Positions 1 through 3,592 of a stretch of DNA of 64,000 nt are shown here, piece by piece; the stretch's first letter is position 1, and the number at the start of each line of letters is the position of its first letter. The notes beneath the pieces were generated by a model. The model worked only from the letters and a program-made list of their open reading frames with translations, was not told the origin of the DNA and did not search any database. This DNA comes from Anaerolineae bacterium (lineage in GTDB: Bacteria > Chloroflexota > Anaerolineae > Caldilineales > Caldilineaceae). The translations under genes and the position numbers were made by a program. The DNA lies in contig JAUIHI010000023.1 of assembly GCA_030432295.1 (NCBI GenBank), positions 1 to 64,000 on the forward strand. The letters are read 5' to 3'.

Positions 1-1
1 G

Positions 2-154
2 TTGCCCCCTTATTGCTCAGACCTCAACCCGATTGAGCGCTTCTGGGGCTTTCTTAAAGAATGGGCCTGTGCCAACAAACTTTTCGCTTCCGTCTTGGAC
101 CTACTTGCTTCGGCCACCAACTGCCTTTCACAACCAAAACAATTTGCTTTCTGA
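2..154 (+). CDS. IS630-family transposase, C-terminal fragment (runs off window start)
   Basis: The reading frame entering from the left edge encodes a 50-residue C-terminal piece containing LPPYCSDLNPIERFWGFLKE. This is the hallmark end of the DDE domain of IS630/Tc1-like transposases, and the Glu in NPIERFW is the third catalytic acidic residue. The remainder of the gene lies outside the window, so it cannot be judged intact. The fragment is AT-rich compared with the following genes, which fits an inserted element. It ends at a TGA just before the terminal-repeat-like sequences at 166-299. Confidence 0.8.
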   Translation: MPPYCSDLNPIERFWGFLKEWACANKLFASVLDLLASATNCLSQPKQFAF

Positions 155-165
155 TGACCGCTTCT

Positions 166-299
166 TATTTCTAAAAACTTAGTTGGTTTTACTTAAGTAA
201 AGTCAAGAATGTTTTTAGACTTCAATCCGTATCCGTTTGCGGCCACTTTGCCCGGAACAGATGCGAATCTATTTCCAAAAACTTAGCTGACTTTACTTA
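166..299. repeat. IS terminal-repeat-like sequences, three related copies
   Basis: A roughly 30 bp sequence at 166-195 recurs in direct orientation at 270-299 with 26 of 30 positions identical; both contain AAAAACTTAG followed by TTTACTTA. A third, inverted copy occupies about 196-219, so 170-178 and 211-219 pair as TCTAAAAAC/GTTTTTAGA around a central ACTTAAGT palindrome. This looks like the right end of the IS630-type element plus extra copies left by earlier insertions or partial duplications. The promoter of the next gene may lie inside it. Confidence 0.6.
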
Positions 300-307
300 C
301 ACATAAG

Positions 308-1534
308 GTGTCACCCGTGGATTGGCTTCTGACAAACGTTCGCCTCCCCGACAAAATTGGTTTGGTGGACATCGCCATCGCCGACGGACGTATCTCGCAG
401 ATCGGCCTCTCGATCCCCGACGCCGCGGCCCAGCGCTGGGATGCAGGCGGACGCATCGTTCTGCCCGGTCTGGTCGAACCCCACGTCCATCTGGACAAGA
501 CGTATCTGAACAGCAGCGGCCATTTCCCCAACCGCAGCGGCACACTCCTGGAAGCCATCGACATCTGGCGGGCGGCGAAAAAGCAGCGCAGCCTGGCCGA
601 CGTGCAGACAGCCGTGCGCCGTGCGTTGCGCGCGGCCATCGCCCACGGCGTCACCGCCATGCGCTCCCACGTGGACACGGAAGAGATGGACGATCTGGAA
701 ACCCTGGCCGCCATTCTGGACGTGCGGGAGGAGTTCCGCCACGCTATCGACCTGCAAATCGTGGCGTTGGCTTTTGCCGGAACCTCGCCGATTATCGACC
801 GCATAATGGCCGACGCCCTGGCCCTGGGCGCGGATTTGGTGGGCGGCGCGCCCGCGCTGGTCCCGGACCCAGTGGCCAGTCTGGACACAATCTTCGCCCT
901 GGCCGAGCGCACGGGCAAACCGATTGATCTGCACATCGACGAGACCGAAGACCCGGCCAGCCGCACCCTTTTGACCCTGGCCGAAATGACAATCGCCGCG
1001 GGGATGCAGGGGCAGGTGACCGCCGGCCACTGCTGTTCCCTGGCTTTTATGGACGATCAGGAGGCGGGCAAAGTCATCGAGCGGGTGGCCGCGGCGGGAA
1101 TCAGTATTGTGACTTTGCCTTCCTGCAATCTGGTGCTGATGGGCCGGGGAATGCAGCCACCGCCCAGGGGTGTGACGCGGGTGAAGGAACTGCTGGCAGC
1201 AGGGGTGAATGTCAGCGCCGGATCGGACAATGTGCAGGACCCCTTCAATCCCTTCGGCGACTACGACCCGTTGCGTTCGGCCCAACTCGCCGCCCACACC
1301 GCCCACTTGACCGGTGCGGACCAACTGACCGCCTGTCGGGAGATGGTGACGAGCCGGGCCGCGGCAGCGCTGGGGTTGGACGGTTACGGGCTGCGGGTGA
1401 GCGCGCCCGCGGATTTAGTGGTGCTGGACGCCTTTGACCCGCAGGAGGCGGTCACTGCGCCGCCGCCCCGGCTGGCGACTTTCAAAAACGGGCGACTGAT
1501 CGTCCGCACACAGACGGAGCAAAAATGGAATTAA
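308..1534 (+). CDS. Cytosine-deaminase-like amidohydrolase (metal-dependent, apparently intact)
   Basis: This 408-aa protein belongs to the amidohydrolase superfamily, in the branch with cytosine deaminase and AtzC-type N-alkyl-ammelide hydrolases. It should hydrolyse a C-N bond on a cyclic or amidine-like substrate. All expected metal and catalytic positions are visible: H59-V-H61 (PHVHLDKT), H209 and E212 in LHIDETED, H241 in GHCCSL, and D307 in SAGSDNVQDPFNPFG. The start is GTG at 308 with only a weak ribosome site; a GTG at 317 is an alternative. The gene overlaps the next, paralogous gene by 10 nt, so the two are co-translated. The true substrate cannot be read from sequence. Confidence 0.85.
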   Translation: MSPVDWLLTNVRLPDKIGLVDIAIADGRISQIGLSIPDAAAQRWDAGGRIVLPGLVEPHVHLDKTYLNSSGHFPNRSGTLLEAIDIWRAAKKQRSLADVQTAVRRALRAAIAHGVTAMRSHVDTEEMDDLETLAAILDVREEFRHAIDLQIVALAFAGTSPIIDRIMADALALGADLVGGAPALVPDPVASLDTIFALAERTGKPIDLHIDETEDPASRTLLTLAEMTIAAGMQGQVTAGHCCSLAFMDDQEAGKVIERVAAAGISIVTLPSCNLVLMGRGMQPPPRGVTRVKELLAAGVNVSAGSDNVQDPFNPFGDYDPLRSAQLAAHTAHLTGADQLTACREMVTSRAAAALGLDGYGLRVSAPADLVVLDAFDPQEAVTAPPPRLATFKNGRLIVRTQTEQKWN

Positions 1535-2766
1535 TCCTGCGCAATGCCCAAATCCACAACGGGCCGCGGGTGGACATCGCCATCGACGGCGGGAAAATCG
1601 CGGCCATCGAATCCCACATCCCCGCCACTGCACAAAACGAAATTGACGCGGACGGGCGGCTGACGATCCCCGCTTTTGTCAACAGCCAGTTGCACGCCTG
1701 CAAATCTTTCTGGCGGCGGCTGCTGGCCCAACTGCCGCCAGAAGTCCAGGTATTGCCCCCCTTCCAGGCCGCGGCCCACGTCAAACGGCTCTACACCGCC
1801 GACGAAGTTTTCAGCCGGGTGGATGAGGTGATGCAGCTTGCCATCCGCCACGGAACCTGCGCCATCCGCCTCTTCGCCGATGTGGACGGGGACGGCGGTC
1901 TGGCTCCAGTGGAGGCTCTGCTGCGCCTGCGGGAGAAGTACCGGGAGTGGCTGACGGTGCAGGTCGTCGCCTTCCCCCAGGACGGTTTCGCCACGCCAGA
2001 GACGGAAAAGCTGATGCGCCAGGCGTTGGAGATGGGCGCGGATTTGTTGGGGGGCATCCCCTGGATTGAGGCGGGGACGGCGGCCCAGCAGCATCACACC
2101 GAGCGCTGCTTTGCCCTGGCCCAGGAATACGACCGGGACCTGCACTTCGTCTGCGACGACATCGCCGACCCGGCTTCCCGTTCCCTGGAAATGGTGGCCC
2201 GGCAGACGCTGGCGACAGGCTGGCAGGGACGGGTAGCCGCGACCCAATGCGCGGCCCTGGCCTTCTACGACGACGCCTACGCAGCGCAGGTCATCGGGCT
2301 GGTGAAGGAGGCGGGGATGACAATTCTGAGCAACAGCCACGTCTCCCTCATCGCCACCGAATTCCCGGAGCGCCAGCCCTGGCCCCGCAGCATCACCCGT
2401 GTGCGGGAACTGCTGGAGGCGGGCGTGCCTGTGGCCTGCGGCCAGGACGACATCGACAATTGGTTCTACCCCTTTGGCCGCAACGATCTGCTGGAGGTGG
2501 CCCAGTTTATGGCCCACAACGGGCGCTTCGCCTGGAACGGGGAGGTGGACCGGGTGCTGCCGATGGTCACATCCACCCCGGCCCGACTGCTGGGGCTGGA
2601 CGATTACGGGCTGTCTGTCGGTGCGGCGGCCAATCTGCTGGTGCTGGACGCGCCGGACTGGCACAGTGCAATTCAGTTTCAGGCGGAAAAACAGGTGGTG
2701 ATTCTGCGCGGACAGGTGGCATCCGCGGCCCAACGCATTGTGGCTACGGCCGGAAAACTGCGGTGA
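1525..2766 (+). CDS. Amidohydrolase-superfamily paralogue with degenerate metal site
   Basis: This 413-aa protein aligns end to end with the preceding gene product and keeps the fold signatures (PAFVNSQLHACKS, DDIADPASRSLE, DDIDNWFYPFGRND). At the catalytic positions, however, it has Q55-L-H57 instead of HxH, V209 instead of the third His, D212 instead of the catalytic Glu, and Q241 instead of the fourth His; the Asp (D308) remains. Known cytosine-deaminase-like enzymes need these residues to hold the metal. The protein may be a non-catalytic partner of the upstream enzyme or use altered chemistry. The open reading frame is intact and codon usage is like its neighbour, so it is not an obvious pseudogene. 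Translation starts at ATG 1525 inside the end of the upstream gene. Confidence 0.8.
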   Translation: MELILRNAQIHNGPRVDIAIDGGKIAAIESHIPATAQNEIDADGRLTIPAFVNSQLHACKSFWRRLLAQLPPEVQVLPPFQAAAHVKRLYTADEVFSRVDEVMQLAIRHGTCAIRLFADVDGDGGLAPVEALLRLREKYREWLTVQVVAFPQDGFATPETEKLMRQALEMGADLLGGIPWIEAGTAAQQHHTERCFALAQEYDRDLHFVCDDIADPASRSLEMVARQTLATGWQGRVAATQCAALAFYDDAYAAQVIGLVKEAGMTILSNSHVSLIATEFPERQPWPRSITRVRELLEAGVPVACGQDDIDNWFYPFGRNDLLEVAQFMAHNGRFAWNGEVDRVLPMVTSTPARLLGLDDYGLSVGAAANLLVLDAPDWHSAIQFQAEKQVVILRGQVASAAQRIVATAGKLR

Positions 2767-3017: not shown

Positions 3018-3260
3018 ATGCAAACAAAAGTTCAGATGTGGGGCAACAGTTTGGCCCTGCGGATTCCCAAGTCCTTCGCCGTCGAAATCGGTCTGGAAAA
3101 CGATACAGCCGTCGATCTGACGCTTGTGGATGGGAATTTGATGATGAAGCCTCTGCGCCCTTCCCAGTTTACATTGGATGAACTTCTGGCAGGTATCACC
3201 GAGCAAAATCTGCACGGGGAGATCGACAGCGGCGAACCGGTTGGGAAGGAGGTCTGGTGA
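3018..3260 (+). CDS. mazE: MazE-like antitoxin (AbrB/SpoVT fold)
   Basis: This 80-aa protein has the N-terminal AbrB/MazE DNA-binding motif (VQMWGNSLALRIPKSFA) and an acidic C-terminal tail (TEQNLHGEIDSGE), which in the family wraps around and neutralises MazF. An AGGAGG ribosome site at 3007-3012 fixes the ATG at 3018. It precedes and overlaps the toxin gene by one base, the normal order for this type II toxin-antitoxin family. It probably represses its own promoter through the palindrome at 2973-2997. Confidence 0.9.
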   Translation: MQTKVQMWGNSLALRIPKSFAVEIGLENDTAVDLTLVDGNLMMKPLRPSQFTLDELLAGITEQNLHGEIDSGEPVGKEVW

Positions 3261-3592
3261 TGGCCTATATCCCCGACCGGGGCGACGCCGTATGGATTCA
3301 ATTCAACCCCCAAGCCGGACACGAACAGGCGGGCCACCGACCTGCTCTCGTCCTTTCACCCGCCGCTTATAACGGGCGGGTAGGGCTGGCTATCCTCTGC
3401 CCGATCACAACCCAAGTGAAGGGGTATCCATTCGAGGTGCAGATTCCCGACGGCCTGGCAGCCACGGGTGTCGTACTCGCCGATCAGATCAAAAATCTGG
3501 ATTGGCGGGCGCGCAAGTCTTCATTTCTCTGCAAATTGCCTGAAGAAACAGTCGAAGAAGTCGCTCAGAAATTGTCGGCGCTGCTCTTCTGA
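3260..3592 (+). CDS. mazF: MazF-like endoribonuclease toxin
   Basis: The 110-aa product matches the PemK/MazF fold: YIPDRGDAVWIQFNPQAGHE at the N-terminus, HRPALVLSPAAYN, and the central VGLAILCPITTQVKGYPFEV. MazF proteins cleave single-stranded RNA at short sequences and arrest growth when not bound by MazE. The ATG at 3260 overlaps the antitoxin TGA (TGATG), which implies translational coupling; a GTG at 3257 is possible. Length is normal and no inactivating change is visible. The cleavage motif cannot be predicted from sequence alone. Confidence 0.9.
   Translation: MAYIPDRGDAVWIQFNPQAGHEQAGHRPALVLSPAAYNGRVGLAILCPITTQVKGYPFEVQIPDGLAATGVVLADQIKNLDWRARKSSFLCKLPEETVEEVAQKLSALLF

Follow-up and report, generated by a model that had tools for sequence, protein, structure and literature searches.

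A ligand-depleted protein of the cytosine deaminase fold, encoded beside an intact amidohydrolase in an Anaerolineae genome, probably plays its own part in a shared catabolic pathway

Two overlapping genes for amidohydrolase-like proteins lie on the forward strand near the start of the window, the whole stretch of 64,000 nucleotides analysed here (positions 1 to 64,000 of contig JAUIHI010000023.1, from an Anaerolineae bacterium). The first, P1 (308-1534), begins with GTG and encodes 408 aa, and the second, P2 (1525-2766), begins with ATG and encodes 413 aa; both reading frames are open, in agreement with an earlier note on this DNA that had described an intact gene pair. The two genes share 10 nt (1525-1534), and translational coupling through this overlap is possible. 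An in-frame GTG at 317 may instead be the true start of P1, as the proteins of two relatives (L023 and L025) begin (M/V)DWLLTN. The overlap is present in all five pair-bearing genomes of the source genus and in none of those examined outside it, where the spacing of P1 and P2 is 107-458 nt, one or two other genes intervene, or the pair is divergent. The two proteins share 36% identity. Further 3' of P2, Pfam recognises a gene pair for a MazE-like antitoxin and a PemK/MazF-like toxin (window 3018-3592), and a similar PemK-like ORF was seen by eye 3' of the P1/P2 pair at L025:7041-7376.

The window opens with the end of a multicopy insertion element (1-195, forward strand) at the edge of contig C19 of the source assembly, which from a short motif we take to be IS630-like and which occurs at nine places in the source genome at 94% identity or above. 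The order of the module in three related loci (L024, L025 and L026) is RibD_C-type reductase, FAD_binding_4/GlcD-like oxidase, creatininase-family hydrolase, P1 and P2, with variants in other carriers. Homologues of its creatininase, FAD oxidase and RibD_C genes are found in the source genome on contig C60 (929-5073), together with a 26-nt inverted match to the end of the element at C60:141-166. One insertion between the creatininase gene and P1 would be a likely cause of the break in the assembly, but the distance from the creatininase gene to this match is approximately 760 nt, against approximately 120 nt between the creatininase gene and P1 in L025, so that the join is putative.

Both proteins match Pfam Amidohydro_3 and Amidohydro_1, and NCBIfam PRK07572 'cytosine deaminase' is the best named model for both, yet their scores (310.6 bits for P1 and 285 for P2) fall below its 438-bit cut-off. 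The closest solved relatives of the two are cytosine deaminases and AtzC, and membership of the CodA/AtzC-type amidohydrolases is evident over the full length, for P1 from sequence and for P2 from sequence and predicted fold together. An AlphaFold2 model of P2 computed from 14 sequences had a pLDDT of 85.4 and a pTM of 0.86, but fell to a pLDDT under 50 in parts important for the question, at residues 273-289 and 312-318. The predicted fold matched CodA and AtzC with Z 46-47, the following matches reaching only 34.5.

Alignment to the solved CodA/AtzC chains, including E. coli CodA, confirmed the residues that the earlier note had read, namely H59, H61, H209, E212, H241 and D307 in P1 and Q55, H57, V209, D212, Q241 and D308 in P2, at positions that in CodA supply the metal ligands and the residues of catalysis. 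The residue set of a CodA/AtzC-type metal-dependent deaminase (HxH, beta-5 His, Glu, beta-6 His and beta-8 Asp) is complete in P1; P2 reads Q, H, V, D, Q and D. On the forward strand of the window, HxH is reduced to QxH in Q55-L56-H57 (1687-1695), Val and Asp take the place of the beta-5 His and Glu in V209-C210-D211-D212 (2149-2160), the beta-6 His is replaced by Q241 (2245-2247), and the beta-8 Asp is retained as D308 within Q307-D308-D309-I310-D311 (2443-2457). H272 (2338-2340) lies two residues after predicted beta-7. The reading of V209 is no alignment slip, because the beta-5 stretch aligns without gaps (YDRDLHFVCDD in P2 and YDRLIDVHCDE in CodA) and H207 lies two residues earlier; H207 as the beta-5 ligand was thereby rejected, this residue moreover being Asn in one of 17 P2-type proteins. 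A cysteine nucleophile was also ruled out, as C59, C210 and C242 each vary among the 17.

Within the source genome (G000, 6.7 Mb in 61 contigs), P2 and P1 are the only matches to P2 at E <= 0.001. Orthologues of P2 with 63-92% identity occur in seven others among 61 genomes (the source and 60 relatives), and a scan of genome contigs with P2 gave 13 loci, from Chloroflexota except for one labelled 'bacterium' and one from Opitutales. The P2 alignment was then searched at E 1e-60 against 400 phylum genomes and 132 from the order Opitutales, and at E 1e-80 against 396 class genomes, which added more distant members; ligand states were read at up to 30 loci per search, and the P2-type matches, which scored far better, were all included. 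The resulting P2-type set holds 17 proteins from 17 genomes, belonging to Chloroflexota apart from one unassigned and three from the Opitutales order search, with five from the source genus. H57, K60, Q152, E182, V209, D211, D212, Q241, H272, Q307, D308, D309 and D311 are present in all 17; D211 and K60 occur also in P1, but V209, D212, Q241, H272 and Q307 do not. The earlier note had allowed that relatives of P2 might retain all ligands and that this copy might be a decaying allele; with V209, D212 and Q241 in 17/17 rows, the relatives have the same substitutions. At position 55, 13 of them have Gln and four have His, so that the six aligned residues read QHVDQD and HHVDQD, respectively. All six catalytic-site residues are kept in the full-length P1-type proteins inspected (10/10 from Chloroflexota and 3/3 from Opitutales, with the G574 protein and the fragments from G016 and G636 outside this count), and the truncated row L028 keeps five of the five that are visible. 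Towards the C-terminus of P2, W379, Q384-F385-Q386 and K389 (residues 379-389, window 2659-2691) are invariant in 15 P2-type rows and absent from 10 P1-type rows. Lying outside the pocket rim defined below, W379, Q384-Q386 and K389 are a possible candidate interface.

Phylogenetic trees separate these residue states. A first tree, built on 78 rows (76 of them different), put the intact HHHEHD proteins (49), a group reading HHLDHD (13) and the QHVDQD proteins (14) each on one side of a branch and left two HHVDQD rows ungrouped. In a second, of 80 rows, the 17 P2-type proteins clustered together (100/100) next to the HHLDHD clade (100/98), and the three intact Opitutales proteins fell with the P1 type (100/99.5). 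P1 type and P2 type are thus separate clades, and a recent tandem duplication of P1 was ruled out. In the HHLDHD sister clade the beta-5 His alone is missing and Glu has become Asp, while HxH, the beta-6 His and the beta-8 Asp remain in place; H272, found in all 17 P2-type rows and in none of 10 P1-type rows compared, is His or Gln in its 13 rows. These partial losses make it probable that ligands were lost stepwise in the P2 lineage and that P2 is no duplicate of P1. The simplest order suggested by the sequences would be loss of the beta-5 His and Glu first (Leu in HHLDHD, Val in P2), then of the beta-6 His, and finally of the leading His in HxH. The earlier note had spoken of ligands lost in the second copy; this account does not hold, as P2 groups with another ligand-depleted clade and the loss is older than the arrangement in the source genus. 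Confidence in the sisterhood of the P2 type and the HHLDHD clade, and hence in the first step, is lower than the support figures suggest, because long branches meet at this point (the programme issued a warning), and the join may be false.

The HHLDHD proteins form a second unexplained ligand-depleted clade, with at least 13 rows, drawn from seven families within the class (loci L115-L120), a lower bound because ligand states were read for part of the loci. Among six of these loci, a gene of a PnrA-like (Bmp) importer cluster lies near four and one for a xanthine-dehydrogenase-type protein near two. As a guide to the substrate, such neighbours give no more than a hint of nucleobases.

P1 and P2 are both under strong purifying selection. 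Against three congeners, dN/dS was 0.12-0.19 for P2 and 0.17-0.21 for P1 by NG86 (P2 higher in 1/3), and 0.07-0.13 and 0.10-0.11, respectively, by YN00 (P2 higher in 2/3). In 11 of the 17 carriers, with complete pairs, leaving out G016 and G636 (P1 cut by contig ends), G585 (no P1) and the three Opitutales, identity was higher for P2 than for P1 in 53/55 pairwise comparisons, which are not independent of one another (mean 67% vs 59%). The slower change of P2 rests on this protein identity, because its dN/dS is not consistently lower. Constraint in the pocket was assessed from a rim of 66 hand-drawn positions at the ends of predicted strands, with the remaining 347 positions as comparison. Invariant positions made up 29/66 of the rim and 59/347 elsewhere in P2 (odds ratio 3.8, p 5e-6; 15 rows), 31/66 and 72/347 in P1 (odds ratio 3.4, p 2e-5; 10 rows), and 52/66 and 114/347 in HHLDHD proteins (odds ratio 7.6; 13 rows). 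Enrichment in P2 is similar to that in P1 and does not fit a scaffold stripped of its pocket.

The genes around P2 recur across its carriers, frequently with a RibD_C reductase and in a few with an ABC importer. A P1-type protein is encoded in 16/17, and the exception, G585 (95% complete), has the FAD oxidase, the creatininase and P2. P2 without P1 had also been considered for the three Opitutales genomes and was ruled out by search and tree, which revealed a P1-type protein of 33-38% identity, on a different contig from P2. The earlier note had proposed a survey of whether the pair always occurs with the same substitutions; this is largely so, given the 16/17 co-occurrence and the constancy of V209, D212 and Q241, with exceptions in the P1-less G585 and in Gln55, which is confined to 13/17. 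The FAD oxidase was found in 16/17 P2 carriers (13/14 in one search, plus G752, G781 and L027), the one without a match being G004, whose contig ends just past P1; the Opitutales oxidase is only 34-36% identical, and therefore is maybe another enzyme. In the congeneric genomes G001 and G005, P1, P2 and the FAD oxidase are all missing. A creatininase-family gene is likewise present in 16/17 carriers (in a search without G004), on another contig than P2 in G748 and G781. Opitutales P2 overlaps the creatininase gene in G752 (by 4 nt) and, in G748 and G781, a PEP-hydrolase-like gene 3' of a UPF0261 gene. Genes for an NMT1/THI5-type binding protein and a permease adjoin the module in G588, related ABC importer genes adjoin the FAD oxidase in G748, G781 and G752, and a cytochrome P450 (L029) and an M20 peptidase-family gene (L027) are single-locus insertions. 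In addition, three FAD oxidase genes stand in tandem in one Opitutales genome, next to genes of an importer and a P1-type gene (L128:4046-8249). A conserved, hydrophobic-looking protein of approximately 146 aa is encoded beside the module at L127:4082-4516, L124:12038-12475 and, by eye, L028:3033-3503; a Pfam scan of the L127 copy gave no match.

Taken together, P2 probably has a separate task in the catabolic pathway that it shares with P1, and is not a decaying copy. Its higher identity and its constrained rebuilt pocket speak for an independent function, as do the variable gene surroundings and the genome without P1, and at a rough probability of just under one half (0.48) the sequences would make P2 a repurposed protein of the CodA fold, with its own activity and no classical metal centre. 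That it is a decaying or non-functional copy is extremely improbable; several catalytic residues are gone, but the reading frame is intact in each of 17 genomes and carries the same substitutions, dN/dS is far below 1 and identity is mostly above that of P1. Co-occurrence of P1 and P2 fits a shared pathway and a complex alike, and the conserved pocket could serve ligand sensing only, which would run counter to an activity of its own.

By analogy, P2 might instead be a catalytically dead partner of P1 or of the creatininase, which it would stabilise or regulate with a ligand in the old pocket, the main rival reading, which we regard as less likely although by no means negligible. The earlier note had offered either a pseudoenzyme partner or a metal-free new activity, a pair of readings that the present results support in part. 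The 16/17 co-occurrence, the joint absence of both genes from G001 and G005 and their overlap in five genomes of the source genus point to a partner, as does a published case in which an inactive subunit of amidohydrolase fold is required by the enzyme beside it (PMC7053772). An obligate role of this kind is weakened by G585, by gene spacing and order that are not kept outside the genus (with different contigs in the three Opitutales, where P2 overlaps other genes), by conservation that is mostly higher in P2 than in P1, and by the constraint on the P2 pocket. It is less probable still that P2 remains a metalloenzyme with fewer ligands or with a rebuilt site, for instance of H57, H272 and D308 on strands 1, 7 and 8. 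These residues occur in 17/17 rows and, in the model, at or two residues past the ends of predicted beta-1, beta-7 and beta-8, and the HHLDHD clade retains HxH, the beta-6 His and the Asp; such a site is nevertheless pure inference, the loop after H272 is poorly predicted, and a further His of HxH is gone in 13/17 rows.

If P2 does have an activity of its own, the module would most likely handle an N-containing heterocycle, which the FAD oxidase could oxidise before the creatininase-family hydrolase opens or deacylates it. P1, metal-dependent, would deaminate or dealkylate, and P2, with its repurposed pocket, would bind an intermediate of the pathway and might catalyse a separate, presumably metal-free step by acid-base chemistry of invariant residues such as K60, D211/D212, H272 and D308/D309. 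More tentatively, the sequences could place P2 at the founding of an unnamed subfamily of CodA-fold enzymes, with a new reaction that dispenses with the classical mononuclear metal centre and was reached by a ladder of ligand losses. Likely surviving intermediates are HHHEHD, HHLDHD, HHVDQD (three Opitutales-side genomes and G588) and QHVDQD (other Chloroflexota). The amidohydrolase superfamily is the textbook case of metal-dependent hydrolysis, and a clade that combines stepwise ligand loss with a constrained pocket would allow the passage from metalloenzyme to metal-free enzyme or sensor to be tested, with living proteins near each stage of ligand loss inside a defined gene module.

Among the matches listed, no ligand-depleted CodA-type subfamily was described in the open-access literature. 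Activity of P2 without a divalent metal would have a parallel in the superfamily, in the 2-pyrone-4,6-dicarboxylate lactonase LigI, which belongs to another subgroup and acts on another substrate class than CodA-type enzymes. For the partner reading of P2, the closest published precedent among the papers listed is by analogy the Pseudomonas aspartate transcarbamoylase, in which an inactive pseudo-dihydroorotase subunit of amidohydrolase fold stands beside an active enzyme (PMC7053772). This subunit shares with P2 the amidohydrolase fold and, with P1 presumably active, the place beside an active enzyme, but differs in its amidohydrolase subgroup and in having a partner of unrelated fold. The fungal pseudo-DHO domain is described as having lost substrate-binding residues together with the zinc ligands; the P2 pocket rim is as rich in invariants as that of P1, and may differ in this respect. 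Closer in fold is AtzC, the N-isopropylammelide isopropylaminohydrolase (4cqb, 5akq and 2qt3), which shares with P2 its subgroup and fold (Z 46-47, 32-33% identity) but is a metalloenzyme with a residue pattern that P2 does not have. E. coli CodA (1k6w and 3o7u) likewise matches P2 over the whole length of the fold (Z 46-47, 31% identity) and has all six residues of P1; P2 is without three His at ligand or catalytic positions and has Asp for Glu. H57 and D308 are retained in P2, as are the second Asp (D314 in CodA, named also in PDB titles) and a Gln in alignment with Q156 of CodA, a residue that is missing from P1.
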